From: a virus
IMG/VR virus record: IMGVR_UViG_3300049845_000032
Span: 1 to 25,807 of that record
Length of the DNA: 25,807 nt
Direction: 5' to 3' (one strand)
Shown: piece by piece, positions 7,401 through 22,855 of the stretch
How the letters are laid out: each line of letters starts with the position of its first letter
How positions within the stretch are numbered: the stretch's first letter is position 1
Notes under the pieces: generated by a model
What the model saw: the letters and a program-made list of their open reading frames with translations, nothing else
Database searches by the model: none
What the model was told of the DNA's origin: nothing
Translations under genes and position numbers: made by a program

Positions 7401-8114
7401 TCACTCCGTCAATAACGATTCGCACTTTTTCCAGAACTTCTCTTCGACTCCCGGCATCCGGATTTGGAATTGGTGGTAGAAGAGTTCGCCTAGATTGTCA
7501 CCGAAGGAAGTACCTTGTCCGTAGTTTGGAAATCCCTTGGCGAGAGTCCAGTAAGGCGGCGCATCCTTTGGTTCCCAATCATATCTAACTGGTGGTTCAT
7601 TGTAGCATATTGGCATGGCTAAGTCAACCGGAATTGCGTGCTGTCTGGCTGCGCGAGTCCACTCTTCGCCTACATCTGAATTAGGATTTTCGTATGCGGA
7701 GGGTCTGCCGATCTTGTCGTAAGTCTCCTTAGAGATAGCAACGGCACTCGGCGCGGCGAACATGTGTTGTCCATCGCCAATGTGATTAGAACTCTGAGCA
7801 TTGCCTGCTAGATGCCCCTCATAGGCATAAGCGAGATATACGTCAATAGCCCGGTCCACAAGAGGAACAGCATCGATATCAAGGAACAGAACGCAGTCGT
7901 GTTCCAACTGCTGTGCCACCTTGTCGCCAAAGGCTTCGACGGGCGAGCCGTTCAATGCCCAAAAGTAATCCATCGCGACACCGTGCGGAAGGTCTACCTG
8001 AATCTGGTAGTGCTTCACACCGGAGCGATTGAATTTCTCGACCACCGAGCGTTGCAGCCCAACAGTCTTCATGTTGATGTTGTTCATGAAGAACGATACG
8101 ATACATGGGTTCAT
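7401..8114 (-). CDS. Putative GT-A-like glycosyltransferase
   Basis: This 237-residue soluble protein begins with a strand and loop (CIVSFFMNNINMKTV). At about residues 70-85 it has CVLFLDIDAVPL, where DID is a DxD-type motif used by GT-A glycosyltransferases to bind metal and the nucleotide sugar. It is shorter than many GT-A enzymes and the rest is not diagnostic, so donor and acceptor are unknown. It is the last member of the glycan cassette and has GAGGA upstream of the ATG at 8114. A non-catalytic relative of glycosyltransferases is possible. Confidence 0.6.
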   Translation of the reverse strand: MNPCIVSFFMNNINMKTVGLQRSVVEKFNRSGVKHYQIQVDLPHGVAMDYFWALNGSPVEAFGDKVAQQLEHDCVLFLDIDAVPLVDRAIDVYLAYAYEGHLAGNAQSSNHIGDGQHMFAAPSAVAISKETYDKIGRPSAYENPNSDVGEEWTRAARQHAIPVDLAMPICYNEPPVRYDWEPKDAPPYWTLAKGFPNYGQGTSFGDNLGELFYHQFQIRMPGVEEKFWKKCESLLTE

Positions 8115-8126
8115 TTTGTTTCCTCG

Positions 8127-8960
8127 TTATCTGACAACTGTTCCGTTGTCGGGGTTTAGAAATTTCTTGGAATGCTCTTCCATCAAGGTCATCGCATTCA
8201 AGTCGTTGTATTTGTTGCTTACCCATCTGCCGCGAAGATGAAGACCGCACTCAAATCGTTCCACAGCCAGTCGATTGATTTCGACATGCCTGCGCAGCAT
8301 AGATTCTGGATGGATGCCGATGTTTGCATAGGAGTATCGGTATATCTCAGTATACATTTCGCAGTATAGATCCATGGTCTGAGAATCGGCAATGGCACAT
8401 TGGTCGTTCAACCCGCCGTCATAGTCGCCACCCACCGGGATGTAGAGGGTCTTGTGCTTTGGTTCGATGACAGGAAAGCTAGTGAACGAACTGTCGAATC
8501 TAAGTCTGATGATACGGTCATATCGAATGCGATTACTCTCTTCGTATAGCCGACGCAATTGATTACACTTCCATAGCTTGTACCACATGAACATCACGTT
8601 CTCGGTCTTTGTTCCCTCAGAAGATACACCGGTTATGGTCTTCTTGTTCTTAGGAAGAAGAGAGCGTATCTGGTGGGTGAGTGGCATAGCGTCAAAGTTA
8701 TCCAGAATCATCATCTTCGGTTGATACTTCTGAGCGAACTCCTGAATGTCTGGCTTGGGTGGTATCGGCTTCTCCAACACAGAGACACCGGCTGCAACAA
8801 GGTCAGCGTCACTCAGTCCTGTCTGAATGGATGTTTCCTCAAAGGGAATCCACGTATCGATGAATACGTCAGCCGCATACGGATCAAGAACATGCTTCTT
8901 GATGTTGTCGAAGTTCCAGATGGCATCCAGTCTGCCAGATATGCACACGGCTGTCTTCAT
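8127..8960 (-). CDS. Uncharacterised glycan-cassette protein, glycosyltransferase-like
   Basis: This 277-residue protein starts KTAVCISGRLDAIW, followed by a strand DVFIDTWIPFEE. It has a central segment RYDRIIRLRFDSSF and later PVGGDYDGGLNDQCAIAD. The opening CISGR and the 'R-x-R-x-D' strand are typical of a family of poorly characterised proteins found in LPS and capsule clusters of bacteria and viruses. They are thought to be glycosyltransferase-like, but no activity can be deduced here. The ATG at 8960 overlaps the GDPD-like stop (ATGA) and is preceded by GGTGA. The next gene follows after 12 nt. Confidence 0.6.
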   Translation of the reverse strand: MKTAVCISGRLDAIWNFDNIKKHVLDPYAADVFIDTWIPFEETSIQTGLSDADLVAAGVSVLEKPIPPKPDIQEFAQKYQPKMMILDNFDAMPLTHQIRSLLPKNKKTITGVSSEGTKTENVMFMWYKLWKCNQLRRLYEESNRIRYDRIIRLRFDSSFTSFPVIEPKHKTLYIPVGGDYDGGLNDQCAIADSQTMDLYCEMYTEIYRYSYANIGIHPESMLRRHVEINRLAVERFECGLHLRGRWVSNKYNDLNAMTLMEEHSKKFLNPDNGTVVR

Positions 8961-9400
8961 AGATCACCACGATACTTCAACACGTAGTCGGTGCACACGC
9001 CGAGACAGTGAGTAATGTCGTCATTGTGGATTTCCGGTAGCACTGCGATGGAGTTACGTACCGGCTGTTTGCCGGGATAGACCCACAGATAGCCTTTGCT
9101 CGTCATGGTCATGTGGTCATTCTCATGCCAGAAGTAGTGCCAGAGATTGTGGAACTCATTGAAAAATTCGATAGCTTGGACGTTCTTGCAGTGAATCCAT
9201 AGATCATTCTGATGATCGTGGAACCACTTTATCGATACCCGATAGGTGGGTTTGTCGTGTCCGAGCCACAGTTCGTTCTGATGCATCCACACATCAACCT
9301 CTGCATTGCCGCAGACACTAATGGCTTCCTCAATGACCCACGGAGCATTCTCATGTGGGGAGGGACCGTTGATCAAACCACGATGGGCGATGTAGATCAT
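8957..9400 (-). CDS. Short GDPD-like (PI-PLC fold) phosphodiesterase-related protein
   Basis: This 147-residue protein has the N-terminal signature of glycerophosphodiester phosphodiesterases: AHRG near residue 5, an EN pair near 16, EVDV near 34 and LGHD near 47. In the family these His, Glu and Asp residues bind the metal and phosphodiester. Full GDPD domains form a TIM barrel of about 230-300 residues, so the second half is missing or strongly reduced here. I chose the ATG at 9400, which overlaps the FkbM stop (ATGA), over a longer frame to 9532 that lies inside the FkbM gene. A role in phosphoglycerol-type glycan chemistry is an inference. Confidence 0.7.
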   Translation of the reverse strand: MIYIAHRGLINGPSPHENAPWVIEEAISVCGNAEVDVWMHQNELWLGHDKPTYRVSIKWFHDHQNDLWIHCKNVQAIEFFNEFHNLWHYFWHENDHMTMTSKGYLWVYPGKQPVRNSIAVLPEIHNDDITHCLGVCTDYVLKYRGDL

Positions 9401-9993
9401 TTTGGTCTGCCGAAGTATACATCCGCTTCCTTGCGGTGACTGTGTGGGACCACGTTGGTTAGGAACCCATGAGAGTGTAGCCACTCGACAACACTGGTAT
9501 GGGAGTTGTCCACGCCAGTATAGAGGTCGCATTCATAAGCCACTTCAACCTGTCCTGCAACGATATCCTTGACTCGTTCGCCTAGGCTTTGTAGTACGCG
9601 GAAGTCGTTACCCTGCGCATCCACCCATAGATACTGGACAGTTTCAATCCCGTAAGTATCCATGAACGTGTCTAGGCGCATTGTGAGGACACGGCATCGA
9701 TCTGTCACATCGAAGTCTGGTCTACCTTCCCACTTGCGGTGAATGTCTGGATCAAAATTGAACATGGAAGAGCAACCCCAATCTGCATGTCCTGCGATGT
9801 TGAACCATGTCCACCCATTCTCAATGTCTACTGCGGCAGGAATCGGATAGTAGTTCTGATAGTTCTTGAATCGATTCTTCAGATGAAGATTCAACTCTGG
9901 TGTGGGTTCGAACGCGAATACGCGCACGCCTGCATCCAGATACCGGACAGTATCGTTTCCAACGTTTGCACCTACTTCGATGACGGTTTCCAT
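9397..9993 (-). CDS. FkbM-family SAM-dependent methyltransferase
   Basis: This 198-residue protein begins METVIEVGANVGNDT, a classical glycine-rich SAM-binding motif I. FAFEPTPE follows at about residues 25-32, where the acidic residue binds the ribose. The segment LWVDAQGNDFRVLQS corresponds to the D-x-x-G-x-(D/E) strand of FkbM enzymes, which methylate hydroxyl groups on sugars and polyketides. The start at 9993 lies one base after the preceding stop. A longer open frame to 10122 lies inside the upstream gene and is ignored. It probably methylates a sugar made or transferred by neighbouring proteins. Confidence 0.88.
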   Translation of the reverse strand: METVIEVGANVGNDTVRYLDAGVRVFAFEPTPELNLHLKNRFKNYQNYYPIPAAVDIENGWTWFNIAGHADWGCSSMFNFDPDIHRKWEGRPDFDVTDRCRVLTMRLDTFMDTYGIETVQYLWVDAQGNDFRVLQSLGERVKDIVAGQVEVAYECDLYTGVDNSHTSVVEWLHSHGFLTNVVPHSHRKEADVYFGRPK

Positions 9994-9994
9994 A

Positions 9995-11365
9995 TTATGC
10001 CTGATGATGTAGTAAGAAATAGTTAAGGTCTTCGGGCGTGCCGATTCCCCACATAGCTTGTGCGTCCTTGATGCGAATCTTCTTACCATCGGCAATGGCT
10101 TCGTTGAAGACTGGCGCGACATAGAACTCGTTGTTCACTCGGATATCCTTCGCGATCATCTGTTCCGCGTACTTCACGTACTCAGATCCTTTCTTCCAGA
10201 AATAGATTCCGACAGTCGCATGGTCCGAGATTGGCTTCTTCTCTGCGACTTCGGAAACAAACCCTTGCTCGTTCAGCTTGGCGTAAGACCACTTAGGATG
10301 GTTCGAATGGAAGGTCACGATGCCTGCGTCGATGGAATCGGCGTTGAACGCATAGAGACACTCATTGGAGTTCCACTCTACGAACTGGTCGGAGTTGGCA
10401 ATGATCAAAGGATCACCCGTGTTGATCAATTCCTTGGCTAGCAGCGTCGTGCAGGCTGCGCCCTCGGTCATGCCGGGAATGATCACGATGGAGCATCCCG
10501 GCGCGATTGCGTTCAGGAGATACTGTAGATGATATTTCTCGTAGTGTTCCTTCTGCACGATGAAGATGTAGTGCGCTTGAATGTTCAGGTTCTCCACAAC
10601 TACCTGAATCATTGGTTTCCCATTAACCTCAATGAGAGGCTTCGGGAAGGTGTAACCCGCAGCCGCGAAACGTGAGCCTGCGCCTGCCATTGGAATGAGT
10701 ACGTTCATGTTCTTAGACTTCCACGGTATGTTGGTCTTACTTTTCACTTGCAGAATACTTTTCACTTGCAGAATATGGTCGTGGCTGAAGTCCTTTCGGT
10801 TCTCGACCGTGACCAGATGCGCACCCGAATCCAAGGCACCCTGCCGTCCGATATGGGAATCTTCTATGATCACCGTATCTTTCGGGAGCGCCTTCATTTC
10901 GGTCATAGCCTTCCAGTACATTTCAGGGAAAGGCTTATTGTGCTTAACGTCTTCGTTGGAGACAAAGATATCCACGTATTCCAGAATGCCCAATCCTAAC
11001 AGAATGATCTTGACTGTGTTGCGAATGGAGTTGGAACAGACTGCGATCTTGTATCCCTCTTCCTTGAGTTCGGCAAACCAGTCGATCAGTTGTGAATCTG
11101 GATTGAGGTCGCGGAAGATATGGAATGTCTCTTCCTGCTTCTCTTCCCAAATCTGCTGATAGGTTTCAGCCGGGAGTCCCTTCTCGCGTGTCAGCTTTTG
11201 CAGCTTTGCGGTCGTCGGAAGCCCATCGTAGGTGGACAGGTGTTCCTCGTAGGTTATCACATATTTCTTGTCTATGTGTGATAACGCCTCGTTGAGAGCT
11301 TCATAATGAATGTCTCGCGAGTCGATCAGCACTCCATCCAGATCAAAAATGACTAGCTTATTCAA
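9995..11365 (-). CDS. HAD phosphatase-nucleotidyltransferase fusion
   Basis: This is a 456-residue two-domain enzyme. Residues 1-205 form a HAD hydrolase of the beta-phosphoglucomutase-like group: motif I FDLDGVL (D8, D10), motif II CSNS, a Lys in KHNKPFPE and motif IV VIIEDS. Residues about 218-456 form a sugar nucleotidyltransferase with IPMAGAGSRF, FPKPLIEVNGKPM and a later ANSDQF metal-binding segment. Such pairs dephosphorylate or activate sugar phosphates for glycan synthesis. The start is TTG at 11365, with GGAG 9 nt upstream, overlapping the GT2 stop by 8 nt; no ATG is available in the HAD N-terminus. The linker contains a perfect 18-bp tandem duplication (10738-10775). Confidence 0.9.
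   Translation of the reverse strand: MNKLVIFDLDGVLIDSRDIHYEALNEALSHIDKKYVITYEEHLSTYDGLPTTAKLQKLTREKGLPAETYQQIWEEKQEETFHIFRDLNPDSQLIDWFAELKEEGYKIAVCSNSIRNTVKIILLGLGILEYVDIFVSNEDVKHNKPFPEMYWKAMTEMKALPKDTVIIEDSHIGRQGALDSGAHLVTVENRKDFSHDHILQVKSILQVKSKTNIPWKSKNMNVLIPMAGAGSRFAAAGYTFPKPLIEVNGKPMIQVVVENLNIQAHYIFIVQKEHYEKYHLQYLLNAIAPGCSIVIIPGMTEGAACTTLLAKELINTGDPLIIANSDQFVEWNSNECLYAFNADSIDAGIVTFHSNHPKWSYAKLNEQGFVSEVAEKKPISDHATVGIYFWKKGSEYVKYAEQMIAKDIRVNNEFYVAPVFNEAIADGKKIRIKDAQAMWGIGTPEDLNYFLLHHQA
10738..10775. repeat. 18-bp tandem duplication in the fusion linker
   Basis: The unit ACTTTTCACTTGCAGAAT occurs twice head to tail at 10739-10756 and 10757-10774, with one further matching base on each side. 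It encodes a repeated ILQVKS hexapeptide between the HAD and nucleotidyltransferase domains. The frame is kept, so the effect is a six-residue longer linker. Confidence 0.95.
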
Positions 11366-12119
11366 GAGGTAGCTCCCGCACCTTCCATGGCAGACCGTCA
11401 GGGAATCGGCGGCGCATTTCAGCGTTGCCGTTCGCGAAGAACTCAGGCTGTACGGAATTCGGTGTGTTGCCCACGGTGTAGTTGACCGTGTGCTTATAGG
11501 TCGTGTCGAACTTAAGGTTGTTGTTCATGAGCGTGTGAGCCAGAACACGATCCACTTCCGGCATACCCGGCTCACGGAACTTGCGATACCACGCCGGTCC
11601 TAGATGAATGGCTAGGGTCGTCGGAATGAAATAGCAGTTAACGTCGATGAAGAAGTCCTGCGGACCTAGGACGGATGCCCATTTGCCTAGGCTCTCGCAT
11701 TCGTCTTTGCAGAGAAACTTGTGTTCCTTGTCCACGATGTTGCGGAACGAATATGCCCAATCGTTACCGGCTTGAATGACCTTGAGGCAGTCTTCGATGT
11801 GGGTCGGCTCAAGGGAGTTGTCATCATCCAGATAGATGATGAACTGCCCTTCGGCTTGGAACGCTCCCGCTGCGTAGATGCGGTGTCCATTCCATCGGTC
11901 TTTACCAATGGAGTACGGCATGGCGATAATGTCTACGTGGGACAGATCAATATCCGGTCCTTCTAGGTCATGGTAGATATCGCTGACTTTCTGCCAATGC
12001 TCCTGCCCGTCCACCACCAGAAGGTGCTGAACGTCTTTATGAGTCTGATTAGCAATAGACCGCAGAGTATGCGGCAGCAACGGGTTGCCGACCGTGGCTG
12101 TAATCACAGTTACTTTCAT
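11358..12119 (-). CDS. Family 2 glycosyltransferase
   Basis: This 253-residue GT-A enzyme opens with KVTVITATVGNPLLPHTLRS and a strand LLVVDG, typical of GT2. The metal-binding IIYLDDDNSLEP lies at about residues 93-104, with DDD acting as the DxD motif. A later EVDRVLAHTLM stretch may hold the catalytic Asp. There is no membrane segment, so it is likely cytosolic or peripheral. It is the first large gene after the strong promoter at 12262-12290 and overlaps the HAD-nucleotidyltransferase start. Donor and acceptor are unknown. Confidence 0.9.
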   Translation of the reverse strand: MKVTVITATVGNPLLPHTLRSIANQTHKDVQHLLVVDGQEHWQKVSDIYHDLEGPDIDLSHVDIIAMPYSIGKDRWNGHRIYAAGAFQAEGQFIIYLDDDNSLEPTHIEDCLKVIQAGNDWAYSFRNIVDKEHKFLCKDECESLGKWASVLGPQDFFIDVNCYFIPTTLAIHLGPAWYRKFREPGMPEVDRVLAHTLMNNNLKFDTTYKHTVNYTVGNTPNSVQPEFFANGNAEMRRRFPDGLPWKVRELPLE

Positions 12120-12121
12120 AA

Positions 12122-12211
12122 TTACTTCTTTTTGTTGCGAGACTTACGCTTCTTAGAACCGAGCTTTGCTCGACCTTTTCCGTGTCTTTTCAATCCAACT
12201 TTTGCGGGCAT
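12122..12211 (-). CDS. 29-residue lysine/arginine-rich peptide
   Basis: A short frame begins MPAKVGLKRHGKGRAKLG and continues to KKRKSRNKKK before TAA. About half of its residues are Lys, Arg or His. GGAG lies 7-8 nt upstream of the ATG, and the frame starts directly after the promoter and hairpin at 12233-12290, making it the first gene of that transcript. Its stop is two bases before the GT2 start. The peptide is expected to be disordered and to bind nucleic acid or an acidic protein, as an early host-modifying peptide might. No family was recognised. Confidence 0.7.
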   Translation of the reverse strand: MPAKVGLKRHGKGRAKLGSKKRKSRNKKK

Positions 12212-12232
12212 GGCAATTCTCCATAACAAAAC

Positions 12233-12261
12233 AGGGCATGGCGCATTGCACGCCATGCCCT
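12233..12261 (-). terminator. Terminator-type hairpin after the fibronectin-like genes
   Basis: A perfect 11-bp G/C-rich stem (AGGGCATGGCG pairing with CGCCATGCCCT, 7-nt loop) lies 11 nt after the stop of the 12273-12578 gene. On the minus strand it is followed by TGTTTTGTT. It fits a Rho-independent terminator for leftward transcripts. The upstream promoter at 12262-12290 would start RNA inside the 5' arm, so its own transcripts would not form the full stem. Confidence 0.75.
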
Positions 12262-12290
12262 ATTATATATCATCAGAACGTAAGAGTCAA
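12262..12290 (-). promoter_or_regulatory. Near-consensus sigma70 promoter
   Basis: On the minus strand TTGACT (12285-12290) and a perfect TATAAT (12262-12267) are separated by exactly 17 nt. The expected start is near 12255. It overlaps the 3' end of the 12273-12578 gene and would drive the basic peptide and the glycan cassette with host RNA polymerase, as an early promoter. Confidence 0.82.
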
Positions 12291-12578
12291 CTCCAAAGTT
12301 CCGGGTGCAGTCTCGTCAGGAACCACAATGCTCTTGACGACAGGCTTGCTACGCTTGCCTGCGCTGTCCAGAACCACGCCCTGAACAAACCACTCACCGA
12401 TATCCAATTCAGGAATGACGGTGGCGAGGGTTGCCGGTACGAATGAATCGTAGGCGGTCCAATTCACGTTGTCTGCGGACAGGGATAGCTCGACCGCTGC
12501 GATATCGGCAGGGTTGAGAGGCTTACCGCTTTCGCGGGTTGTTGGGAGAACCCAACTTACATTTACTGATCGTGCCAT
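12273..12578 (-). CDS. Single fibronectin-III-like domain protein
   Basis: This 101-residue protein is almost entirely one beta-sandwich domain. VNVSWVLPTTRESGKPL resembles the first strands of a fibronectin type III module, and IGEWFVQGVVLDSAGKRSKP resembles the F-G strands. Fn3-like and Ig-like domains are common on phage virions and tail fibres, where they bind carbohydrate or decorate the surface. AAGGAG sits upstream of the ATG at 12578. It follows the membrane-anchored Fn3-like gene, and both lie behind the late promoter motif at 13295-13302. A virion role is likely but not proven. Confidence 0.78.
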   Translation of the reverse strand: MARSVNVSWVLPTTRESGKPLNPADIAAVELSLSADNVNWTAYDSFVPATLATVIPELDIGEWFVQGVVLDSAGKRSKPVVKSIVVPDETAPGTLELTLTF

Positions 12579-12676
12579 GTGTTTAGCTCCTTAAGTTGTG
12601 AAGGTGGGTCTTTTGGTTTCTTTTGGAACAGTCCCTTCAACCAGTCCCAAAAAGCTTTGATTATCTTAGTGAACAT
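12563..12676 (-). CDS. 37-residue amphipathic peptide between the Fn3-like genes
   Basis: A short frame from the ATG at 12676 reads MFTKIIKAFWDWLKGLFQKK and then a Pro/Lys-rich tail ending in TAA. The first 20 residues make a cationic amphipathic helix (I, F, W, L on one face; K on the other), like membrane-active peptides. It overlaps the upstream stop by 16 nt and the next gene by 16 nt, bridging an otherwise empty 82-nt gap. No clear ribosome-binding site is visible, so it would rely on coupling to the upstream gene. It may be real, or a chance open frame. Confidence 0.4.
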   Translation of the reverse strand: MFTKIIKAFWDWLKGLFQKKPKDPPSQLKELNTWHDQ

Positions 12677-13266
12677 TTTGCCAATACCACGATAGGTCTA
12701 GTAGTCCCCGACCACGAATTGACTGATGTAAACGGAACAACGTTGTACCCGTTTACGTATTGATTTGGATCACACGGGGTATTTAGGGGAACCGTACCTA
12801 CGAACACCATGACGAATCCGTTGTTCTTTTTGACCAGATTGTAGACCCCGGTTTCCACGGTCACGAATGATGGATTAGGCGGCAGCGGCGATGTGCCAAC
12901 CACAGTGGTCGTTACCGTGGGTGTCCTTGCGGACTCCACACCTTCGACGTTGTATGCGGTCATGGCAAACTGCCATACACCCGACGCCAATCCGGGGATC
13001 GAATAGGTCCGCGCTGCCGGGTCGGTGATATCCAACATGAATCCGGAGGTCGCGCCTTGGGCGTTGTAGTAGATCTTAAACCCGTCTAGACTGCCGGGAC
13101 CGGTGGCAGGAATCGGGCTGTTATCGGTGTTTTGGGTAGGAGCTTCCCATGTGACCACCGTTGCTCCAAACGCGCTTGAGATAGCGAACAGCATATAGGC
13201 AATGATCACGATGATCACAGCCATCATTAGCTTTCCCCAATCGAATCCTTTGTTGTCGTCTGACAT
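12661..13266 (-). CDS. Membrane-anchored or secreted fibronectin-III-like protein
   Basis: This is a 201-residue protein. After a short charged N-terminus it has a hydrophobic segment at about residues 12-34 (LMMAVIIVIIAYMLFAISS) that ends in FGA, so it is either a membrane anchor or a signal peptide with an AFGA cleavage site. Residues 36-110 look like an Fn3 module (VVTWEAPTQNTDNSP, FKIYYN, WQFAMTAYNVEGVES). A Pro-rich linker (SPLPPNPS) and a second beta domain with two Cys follow. The ATG at 13266 has AGAAGGGAA upstream and lies about 28 nt after a T4-type late promoter motif, consistent with late expression. Confidence 0.8.
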   Translation of the reverse strand: MSDDNKGFDWGKLMMAVIIVIIAYMLFAISSAFGATVVTWEAPTQNTDNSPIPATGPGSLDGFKIYYNAQGATSGFMLDITDPAARTYSIPGLASGVWQFAMTAYNVEGVESARTPTVTTTVVGTSPLPPNPSFVTVETGVYNLVKKNNGFVMVFVGTVPLNTPCDPNQYVNGYNVVPFTSVNSWSGTTRPIVVLAKCSLR

Positions 13267-13439
13267 AGCAGTTCCCTTCTGAGTTCTATCATTGTATTTA
13301 TGTAGGCTCGCTGCTCTTCGGTGTATTTGAGCCAGTCTGTGATTTCCCCAAGCGTGCGAAAACAGCCAGAGCATAGATTGCTCTGGCTGTCCAGTTTACA
13401 CACTCTGATACAGGGAGTCCCTGTCGTTCTTTTGCTCAT
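13227..13439 (-). CDS. DUF1289 small cysteine-rich protein
   Basis: This 70-residue protein has the DUF1289 pattern: PCIRVC (C10, C14), then LCSGCFRTLGEITDW (C23, C26). Four Cys are placed to bind iron-sulfur or zinc. The family is common in Proteobacteria and has no firm function. The ATG overlaps the upstream stop (ATGA). The coding sequence contains a 12-bp inverted repeat followed by U's (13362-13390) and a late promoter motif (13295-13302), and its last 40 nt overlap the Fn3-like gene. The regulatory load may explain part of its codon choice. Confidence 0.85.
   Translation of the reverse strand: MSKRTTGTPCIRVCKLDSQSNLCSGCFRTLGEITDWLKYTEEQRAYINTMIELRRELLCQTTTKDSIGES
13295..13302 (-). promoter_or_regulatory. 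T4-type late promoter motif CATAAATA
   Basis: The minus strand reads CATAAATA, matching 7 of 8 positions of the T4 late box TATAAATA and fitting the NATAAATA form described for T4-like cyanophages. I found no second copy of this motif by eye on the coding strand. It lies 28 nt before the Fn3-like start, leaving room for a roughly 22-nt leader with a ribosome-binding site. Confidence 0.62.
13362..13390 (-). terminator. Intragenic terminator-like hairpin inside the DUF1289 gene
   Basis: ACAGCCAGAGCA and TGCTCTGGCTGT form a perfect 12-bp stem with a 5-nt loop, followed on the minus strand by TTTCGC (four U's counting the last stem base). It covers codons 17-26 of the DUF1289 gene. It is well placed to stop early transcripts before the late promoter 60 nt downstream. 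Confidence 0.6.
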
Positions 13440-14850: not shown

Positions 14851-15059
14851 ACGATACTCATAAGTGATCTTAGGGAAGCTTCCGCGATCTTAGCGTTGAT
14901 CATGGTAGGAATGTCTTCATACGGATCTTCTAAGAGGAACGGGCAACCCGCACGCCAGTTATTATACTTCAAATAAGAAGCATAGTCAAGCCGATGTTCG
15001 TGATTAGACGGATCGAAAATGACGCGGGGTTTCGGATTGTAGGATTTCACGCGATACAT
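14847..15059 (-). CDS. Small conserved-looking phage protein
   Basis: The gene encodes 70 residues. The segment KPRVIFDPSNHEHRLDYASYL, given in part, followed by NWRAGCPFLLEDPYEDIP and a C-terminal helix MINAKIAEASL, resembles a family of small T4-like phage proteins of unknown function. GGAG lies upstream of the ATG at 15059, which is a normal spacing. The stop overlaps the coiled-coil gene. Confidence 0.75.
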   Translation of the reverse strand: MYRVKSYNPKPRVIFDPSNHEHRLDYASYLKYNNWRAGCPFLLEDPYEDIPTMINAKIAEASLRSLMSIV

Positions 15060-15758: not shown

Positions 15759-15936
15759 GATAGTCGTCCTCAAAATAGTGTTTTGGAACCTTCGGCGCGG
15801 ACGACATGACGATTGATTCCGTTATCGTATGCGTATTCGGAAAGTAGATCTTTTCCACTTCGATCTTTACGCCCATGTTGTAATACGTCTTATTAAGACG
15901 GACTACCGTATCAAGAGTCGTTATTTCCGAATCCAT
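15751..15936 (-). CDS. Small hypothetical protein
   Basis: This 61-residue protein (MDSEITTLDTVVRLNKTYYN at the start) is predicted to be mostly beta strand with a Tyr-rich middle and an acidic C-terminus. It has no membrane segment. It follows the tiny membrane peptide gene by 10 nt, and its stop overlaps the start of the secreted protein by 8 nt. No family recognised. Confidence 0.6.
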   Translation of the reverse strand: MDSEITTLDTVVRLNKTYYNMGVKIEVEKIYFPNTHTITESIVMSSAPKVPKHYFEDDYHA

Positions 15937-17952: not shown

Positions 17953-17981
17953 ATGATAGCAAGAGTGGGAAGGAAAGGCAA
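17953..17981 (-). promoter_or_regulatory. Extended -10 sigma70-like promoter overlapping a hairpin
   Basis: On the minus strand TTGCCT (17976-17981) and TATCAT (17953-17958) are 17 nt apart, and TGC directly precedes the -10 (extended -10). The -35 lies within the 3' arm of the hairpin at 17976-18000. The predicted start falls at about 17946, the A of the next ATG. Confidence 0.5.
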
Positions 17982-18000
17982 GGGGAAAATCCCCTTGCCT
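17976..18000 (-). terminator. Hairpin after the Ala/Lys-rich gene
   Basis: AGGCAAGGGGA and TCCCCTTGCCT form a perfect 11-bp stem with a 3-nt loop, starting 9 nt after the stop of the 18010-18339 gene. The following minus-strand bases are TTCCTTCCC, so the U-run is poor. It may be a weak terminator or an RNA-end stabiliser. Confidence 0.55.
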
Positions 18001-20239: not shown

Positions 20240-20841
20240 TTCTCTAGTCCTGCCATGCGGAATCGGAGGTCTTCAAGTTCCTTGCGTTCTTCGGAGGTCA
20301 ATCCAGTCTTGTCGATTTCAATCTTGCGCTCAATCTCCCACGGAACGATGCGCTGAATCACTCCGGACTCTTCGCACATGACCTTCGCAAAGTCTAGGTG
20401 ATAGGATACTCCTGCGCCTGCTCCCTTGAACGGAATGTCAGGACCGATGATTTCCACGATACCGGCTTGAATGAGTCCGCGACAACAATCAGCGCAAGGC
20501 TGCGGTTCCCAATTGAGGTAAGCCTTTGCTCCCGCAATCTTTACGCCTGCTCGCGCTGCATTGTAGATGGCATTGCGCTCCGCGTGTTCGATCCACGAAT
20601 ACTTCGCGGGACGCGCCCAACGGTCAGCGATCAACCGCTTTTCGGGATAGAACACAGGGTAGTCTTGTACCTGTTCCATGTAGGACTCTTCCTCTTTCAC
20701 ACCGCGAGGAAATCCGTTGAATCCGGTAGACAGCACGGCGTTGTCTCTAGAGACAAGCACGCAACCTACTTTGGTGGACGGGTCTTTGCTTTTCTCGGAA
20801 ACAAGAAAAGCCATCTTGATAAACAGTTCGTCCCAATTCAT
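20236..20841 (-). CDS. dCMP deaminase
   Basis: This 201-residue zinc enzyme converts dCMP to dUMP, the substrate for dTMP synthesis. MNWDELFIKMAFLVSEKSKD and STKVGCVLV match the family's N-terminus. The zinc/catalytic motif HAERNA lies at 86-91, and PCADCC at 115-120 supplies two Cys ligands. T4 Cd is about 193 residues. I use the ATG at 20841 rather than 20871, because the promoter at 20872-20900 would start RNA near 20865, downstream of the longer start. GGAA lies before 20841. The C-terminus carries an extra helix. Confidence 0.93.
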   Translation of the reverse strand: MNWDELFIKMAFLVSEKSKDPSTKVGCVLVSRDNAVLSTGFNGFPRGVKEEESYMEQVQDYPVFYPEKRLIADRWARPAKYSWIEHAERNAIYNAARAGVKIAGAKAYLNWEPQPCADCCRGLIQAGIVEIIGPDIPFKGAGAGVSYHLDFAKVMCEESGVIQRIVPWEIERKIEIDKTGLTSEERKELEDLRFRMAGLEK

Positions 20842-22238: not shown

Positions 22239-22855
22239 TACAAAAACGCCTCTAGAGTAGAAATATCACCTTGTCTTTCATTATCTTGCTCTGTGATAAC
22301 CACAGGACGTTCTTTGTATTCCGATATGAGTGTTGCATTCTTGACGCGATTTGCAGACAAACTACCTAGAACACTCCCATATGAAACACCAACAACTTCA
22401 CAGAATTCTTCACCCGTAATGATGTTGAGTTCTGGATGAATCAGATTACCCCGGCTATTCTTCCCACCAAAGAAATTCACGATGTTGACTTCAACCTTGT
22501 GCTTTGGGAACTGAGTCTGTAAATCCGCTTTCAGTGTTAGGTATGTTGTGGATTCAGACTTACATTGTTTAGAATCTAAACTGTTCAAATTAGTTTTGAT
22601 TTCTGCTACCCACACCAACATATTGATAGGATCAATCAATAGAAAATCTGGAATCTTCCTATTGATTTTGGGTTTTCTACACACAGACTTTACTTCGCAA
22701 AATGGCAAACGATCCCAATCTACTATAGGTAGGTTGATGTTTTCTGTTATTACATCCTCTAGAAAATACCCAAACCTAGAACTAGATGACGCTAACATAC
22801 TATAGAATCTTGCTGTCTCCAAATCTCCGGTCATCATATAGACCGGAGATTTCAT
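22238..22855 (-). CDS. PD-(D/E)xK-type nuclease, homing or restriction-like
   Basis: This 205-residue protein carries PDFLLIDPINMLVWVAEIKT, a clean PD-x(n)-ExK catalytic core as in restriction enzymes and some homing endonucleases. The C-terminal half has no recognised domain. Its sequence is A/T-rich relative to the flanking phage genes (37 G/C of 120 at 22561-22680, against 36 of 60 at 24241-24300), which supports recent acquisition. The start is unsure: I prefer the ATG at 22855, with AAGGAG 13 nt before it, over a GTG at 22894. A perfect 12-bp inverted repeat begins right after this ATG. It sits between gp44 and gp62. Confidence 0.75.
   Translation of the reverse strand: MKSPVYMMTGDLETARFYSMLASSSSRFGYFLEDVITENINLPIVDWDRLPFCEVKSVCRKPKINRKIPDFLLIDPINMLVWVAEIKTNLNSLDSKQCKSESTTYLTLKADLQTQFPKHKVEVNIVNFFGGKNSRGNLIHPELNIITGEEFCEVVGVSYGSVLGSLSANRVKNATLISEYKERPVVITEQDNERQGDISTLEAFL
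22821..22852 (-). promoter_or_regulatory. Perfect 12-bp inverted repeat at the nuclease start
   Basis: AAATCTCCGGTC and GACCGGAGATTT form a perfect 12-bp stem with an 8-nt loop, covering codons 2-12 of the nuclease if ATG 22855 is used. In mRNA this hairpin would sit next to the start codon and could block translation. A DNA-level binding site is also possible because the arms are palindromic. Confidence 0.7.

Follow-up and report, generated by a model that had tools for sequence, protein, structure and literature searches.

Organization of the Locus

The DNA analyzed is a 25.8-kb IMG/VR fragment (IMGVR_UViG_3300049845_000032; 25,807 nt), referred to here as the window, which its sequence assigns to a T4-like phage. 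Its gp41 is ∼60% identical to that of a cyanophage, and a megablast search of the window against phage genome records returned no close record. The islet under study carries three genes, FnA, a short peptide, and FnB (together, the trio), and is neighbored by replication-type genes (gp41, UvsX, gp43, and gp44) and by a glycan gene block, with the minus strand as the coding strand of the genes around it. Base composition does not mark the islet as foreign, its GC content being 52–54% vs 46–53% in the surroundings.

All features of the locus lie on the minus strand and are described in the order of transcription. A sigma70-type promoter, TTGACT-17-TATAAT, found by scan at 14961–14989, is located upstream of the islet and could read into it; it sits inside the coding sequence of g14847 (codons LDYA..LKYN) and is also found in the relatives L045 and L007, with its −35 box weakened in L003. 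The DUF1289 gene (13227–13439; 70 aa; Pfam PF06945, E 1.2e-17) houses a 12-bp hairpin at 13362–13390, within the codons for DSQSNLCSGC, and a late-type motif, CATAAATA, at its 3′ end (13295–13302). It is followed by FnA (12661–13266; 201 aa), the peptide (12563–12676; 37 aa), and FnB (12273–12578; 101 aa), the 3′ end of which contains a second TTGACT-17-TATAAT promoter (12262–12290) with an 11-bp hairpin (12233–12261) abutting its −10 box. The first gene past this hairpin, basic29 (12122–12211), encodes a highly basic protein of 29 aa that is 96–100% identical in L003, L004, and L045, and the second gene of this downstream early unit is a GT2 glycosyltransferase (11358–12119; PF00535, E 6.5e-8). 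The protein basic29 is almost invariant in near relatives and is found in many distant ones, usually encoded upstream of a glycosyltransferase gene; a PHROG search with it gave no match. The glycan-type block between the DNA polymerase and the islet (7401–12119, minus strand) comprises GT2, a HAD and nucleotidyltransferase fusion, an FkbM methyltransferase, and others, and its gene content varies strongly among relatives.

The informative relatives are L003 (52-kb contig G003), L045 (the same as L005), L004, L006, and L007 (172-kb contig G001). As far as the contigs extend, they share the gene order DUF1289, FnA, peptide, FnB, basic29, GT2, except that the FnB-GT2 interval of L007 lacks basic29. 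The two Fn3-like genes and the amphipathic peptide noticed in the first-pass annotation of this DNA are real and conserved in relatives.

The two islet hairpins, both present where that annotation had placed them, are the top two perfect hairpins of the window by score, and hairpins scoring at least 18 number four in the window vs 0.025 per dinucleotide shuffle. The promoter at 12290–12262, also reported earlier, is one of four 11-of-12 matches to the sigma70-type consensus, all on the coding strand, where shuffles yielded 0.275 on both strands. The late-type motif is likewise present on the minus strand and is the sole NATAAATA of the window. Most of the listed signals exceed chance. Elsewhere, at 22821–22852, the window has a 12-bp perfect hairpin (AAATCTCCGGTC..GACCGGAGATTT) with neither a T tail nor a promoter.

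A Hairpin within the DUF1289 Coding Sequence

The stem at 13362–13390 is GC-rich (12 bp, 7 of them GC) and overlaps a Cys motif, the codons of which might have produced it as a by-product. When DSQSNLCSGC was recoded synonymously 1000 times with phage codon usage, 0 of 1000 recodings reached the observed hairpin in the window, L003, L045, or L034, and the by-product explanation was rejected for these four. In a paired-site alignment of the hairpin 98.5% of cells are paired and four pairs have both sides changed, in one sequence each; by alignment these changes all fall in L034 and so count as one comparison. The DUF1289 protein of L034 is only ∼40% identical, yet its gene has the hairpin at the identical register, built from another stem sequence. 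The hairpin of L007 has one mismatch, and in L035 and L042 DUF1289 is without it. These comparisons identify the hairpin as an RNA-level element under selection.

The hairpins had been described as terminator-like. With intrinsic terminators defined by at least five T among the eight bases past the stem, the DUF1289 hairpin, which is followed by TTTTCGC, falls short and is absent from the terminator-like list of the consensus scan, whereas the downstream hairpin is listed (12230–12264, minus strand). Since its tail is a poor U-tract, the DUF1289 hairpin is considered an RNA-level element rather than a demonstrated terminator.

A Candidate Late Promoter Upstream of FnA

Contained in the final codons of DUF1289 (Y-I-N-T), the motif CATAAATA (13302–13295) is 28 nt upstream of the ATG of FnA. 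The octamer NATAAATA is the reported late promoter motif of T4-like cyanophages (PMC2984593). In the relatives' genomes gene-preceding NATAAATA sites are spaced 23–30 nt from the gene, with one exception at 42, and the late sigma factor gp55, sought in the relatives' contigs, is encoded by G001, G002, and G003 (E ∼1e-62); among the genes of the window fragment none of this kind was recognized. The octamer, strand, and spacing of CATAAATA are, as judged from sequence, those of a T4-type late promoter. Compared with the T4-type promoter itself (TATAAATA; NATAAATA in cyanomyoviruses), the window motif is alike in octamer, strand, 23–30-nt spacing, and the presence of gp55 in relatives, and differs in having C at position 1 and in being buried in a coding 3′ end within an early region.

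The position of the motif varies among relatives. L045 has GATAAATA at the same position and spacing as in the window. In L003 the sequence at the FnA position is CATATGTA; the TATAAATA of this relative is found 1.1 kb upstream of that position, ahead of DUF1289 and 28 nt from the start of a 65-aa gene, with an intact DUF1289 hairpin between TATAAATA and FnA. In L007, CATAAATA lies 25 nt before a DUF5658 gene that is again upstream of DUF1289. Consequently, late transcripts in L003 and L007 must cross the DUF1289 hairpin (intact in L003) to reach FnA. Overall, a NATAAATA 25–28 nt before a Shine-Dalgarno-ATG gene occurs in this segment in 4/4 phages (the window and three relatives). Only ATAAATA among the 128 A/T 7-mers reaches all four segments; the next, TAAATAA, reaches 2/4, at sites of this kind that it overlaps with a one-base shift, so that no independent A/T 7-mer matches the pattern. 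This count is strong, yet it does not convert to a clean p-value because the four phages are relatives of one another and the segment was delimited with the data already in view.

These observations bear on an alternative, an ordinary hypervariable insertion in which the Fn3 genes are expressed with their early neighbors, CATAAATA arose in the codons by coincidence, and mRNA stability or translation is what the hairpins serve. The location of the motif within codons, its absence from directly upstream of FnA in L003 and L007, and the weak hairpin tails speak for such an insertion; a correctly spaced NATAAATA in 4/4 phages, where the other A/T 7-mers reach no more than 2/4, and the late context of the trio in other phages (below), speak against it.

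The Promoter–Hairpin Joint at the 3′ End of FnB

The first-pass annotation had the 12233–12261 hairpin preceding the promoter in transcription order. This order is reversed: transcription of these genes proceeds along the minus strand and reaches the promoter (12290–12262) before the hairpin (12261–12233). The hairpin directly adjoins the −10 box, and its 5′ arm contains the predicted start point; transcripts from this promoter would therefore carry only a shortened hairpin, with the whole hairpin carried by transcripts derived from upstream. The genes served by this promoter are basic29 and GT2 rather than those of the islet.

A hairpin is kept at the same site in L003, L004, L045, L006, and, in a shorter form, L007, with differing stem sequences and, L007 excepted, folding z-scores of −3.6 to −5.6 (relative to simple base shuffles). 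In L006 and L007 the joint has only a weak sigma70 match or none. MAFFT placed too many gaps in the promoter-hairpin region for pairs to be counted. The U-tract past the hairpin is GTTTTGTT in the window, partial in L003, and absent in L045, L004, and L006. Hairpins following gp23 in the same phage group are terminator-like with T-rich tails, and the islet hairpin tails are poor by comparison. The earlier description of the islet as bracketed by terminators is not supported in that form, given a DUF1289 hairpin that lacks a proper U-tract and a downstream hairpin that has one only in the window and, in part, in L003.

Other hairpin-promoter composites occur in the window, G001, and G003. At 17953–18000 of the window (minus strand), the 3′ arm of an 11-bp hairpin, AGGCAAGGGGATTTTCCCCTTGCCT, holds the −35 box of a TTGCCT-17-TATCAT promoter, an arrangement kept in G003 at 34895. 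Window 17976–18000 and the stem of the islet hairpin in L004 have 9-mers in common, hinting that stem-loop cassettes may have been shuffled.

The joint recalls the promoter-early stem-loop (PeSL) cassettes of the T4-like phages RB49 and phi1, reportedly described by Arbiol in 2010 and by Comeau in 2014. Both join a strong sigma70-type promoter directly to a stem-loop on the border of a variable gene block. In the window, however, the promoter precedes and overlaps the stem-loop, whereas the stem-loop comes first at the three RB49 promoters that have a hairpin close upstream, as judged from a scan of RB49; for this reason the joint was not classed as a PeSL. No repeated identical copies were seen in the window fragment, which has other hairpin-promoter composites (above). 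In RB49 (L086), a strong promoter immediately followed by a hairpin, the order of the window, occurs at 20558, where genes 45 and 44 meet, and at 15803, close to the end of gene 43.

The FnA, Peptide, and FnB Proteins

FnA begins with a predicted signal peptide or anchor helix, followed by an Fn3 domain and a conserved C-terminal β domain with two Cys residues. FnB is a single Fn3-type β-sandwich without a signal peptide. The AlphaFold models of FnA and FnB (pLDDT 81 and 89, respectively) have Fn3 structures as their Foldseek matches, and the predicted structures place both proteins in the Fn3 fold. The Pfam Fn3 profile scores FnA below its cut-off and does not match FnB, and the FnA and FnB profiles are related to each other (hhalign E 2.6e-6). 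The peptide between them consists of an amphipathic or hydrophobic helix and a conserved PSxLKxLN-type tail, although conservation of its LKEL partly reflects nucleotide constraint, as part of the tail overlaps the FnB ribosome-binding site.

Database searches gave few matches. NCBIfam had none for FnA or FnB, PHROG returned only generic Fn3 regions or unnamed families for the trio (including a weak match to the phrog_31 Fn3 region), and a comparison of the trio with lysis-protein families gave no match. By tblastn, FnA and FnB were not found in phage records, where the FnB of L082 as query gave one weak match, and a pattern scan for FnB in bacterial genomes found none. FnA and FnB share their fold with Fn3/Ig-like phage domains such as those of tail fiber J and decoration proteins, but stand alone outside any fiber, one with a signal peptide, and are paired with a membrane peptide.

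The Trio in Unrelated Phages and an Empty Site

Profile searches of contigs located all three members of the trio in the unrelated contigs L081, L082, and L115, and FnA with FnB in L104, L106, L107, and L116. In L104 the peptide is also present, in frame with FnB and continuous into it (L104:5471–5881), and this in-frame joining suggests that peptide and FnB may work together. In L115 the genes ahead of the trio are those of an endolysin and an Rz-like spanin and a lipoprotein-like gene that overlaps the Rz-like gene in the fashion of Rz1, and in L081 the trio is downstream of Rz-like and Rz1-like genes; the label Rz1-like reflects position and a lipoprotein appearance, the PHROG match being phrog_2425, which has no named function. 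In L082 the trio heads a structural block, just ahead of a conserved phage gene and tail-type genes, and in L108 a small terminase gene comes shortly after FnA. The genes found here mark these neighborhoods as late (lysis, packaging, and structural).

The trio resembles phage lysis cassettes (endolysin, holin, and Rz/Rz1 spanins) by its position in L115 and L081, and is unlike them in the T4-like relatives, where lysis genes do not accompany it; none were recognized next to it in the window. Judged by its profile matches, the trio is an unnamed three-gene cassette common to unrelated phages, and we infer a role in lysis or at the envelope, at or near lysis.

L031 and L034 have DUF1289 with its hairpin, then a TTGCCT-17-TATAAT promoter in the DUF1289 3′ end, then basic29, and the trio is absent. 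This arrangement supports the trio behaving as an insertion between DUF1289 and basic29; a deletion in L031 and L034, rather than an insertion in the window, is a possible alternative. At about the same codons L034 has an early −10 box and the window and L045 the late-type motif, which suggests that the promoter class may have been swapped on insertion.

Discussion

The islet would probably be a mobile late-phase accessory cassette, late-transcribed and hairpin-edged, inserted in a T4-like early operon, a reading held with moderate confidence. The earlier proposal of a late cassette in early DNA is supported by signals beyond chance, the spaced NATAAATA in 4/4 phages, gp55 in relatives, late neighborhoods elsewhere, and the empty site. 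What finds no support in its original form, besides terminator bracketing, is its self-contained nature, as the downstream sigma70-type promoter is part of the next early operon and the late motif of L003 and L007 lies upstream of DUF1289.

In the proposed scheme, the trio (an exported FnA, a membrane-active peptide, and FnB) would have been inserted between DUF1289 and basic29-GT2 of an early, replication-side operon. Early transcripts from 14989 would be weakened at the DUF1289 hairpin, and RNA polymerase directed by gp55 would probably start late at CATAAATA to transcribe FnA, the peptide, and FnB. The full hairpin at 12261–12233 would then weaken late read-through and close the islet, and the adjoining sigma70-type promoter would restart early transcription of basic29-GT2. 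The timing, the termination, and the direction of the insertion event are what we infer here. The main weaknesses of this reading are that a late transcript in L003 would cross an intact DUF1289 hairpin and that the hairpin tails are poor; the early promoter at 14989 directed toward the islet, the motif within codons, and the weak or absent sigma70 match in L006 and L007 also count against it.

A rival is dual early-plus-late (middle-like) expression, an unlikely reading in which the trio ends the early transcript from 14989, a late promoter has been added, and the hairpins are no real barriers. It agrees with the conservation of TTGACT-17-TATAAT at 14989 in L045 and L007 and with the weak U-tracts at the islet hairpins. 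Overlapping early and late promoters, moreover, are described as the middle mode of RB49 and S-PM2, proposed for RB49 and for cyanophages without MotA (PMC2984593). Against it, the DUF1289 hairpin is under RNA-level selection, for which there would be no need in a neutral read-through region. The ordinary hypervariable insertion, with the spaced motif and the late contexts of the trio against it, is improbable.

A broader interpretation of the late cassette is offered tentatively, as a possibility that falls short of an even chance: FnA-peptide-FnB may be an undescribed mobile module that acts on the host envelope at lysis and moves among unrelated tailed phages, embedded here behind a coding-sequence terminator that would keep it silent until late. 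The RNA-selected hairpin inside DUF1289 would be an unusual case of regulatory and coding information sharing one sequence. Collectively, the locus would provide a concrete case of a late module placed in an early block of a T4-like phage by means of two hairpins and a late promoter that lie within or next to coding sequence, and it points to an unnamed three-gene cassette adjoining lysis or packaging genes in unrelated phages.
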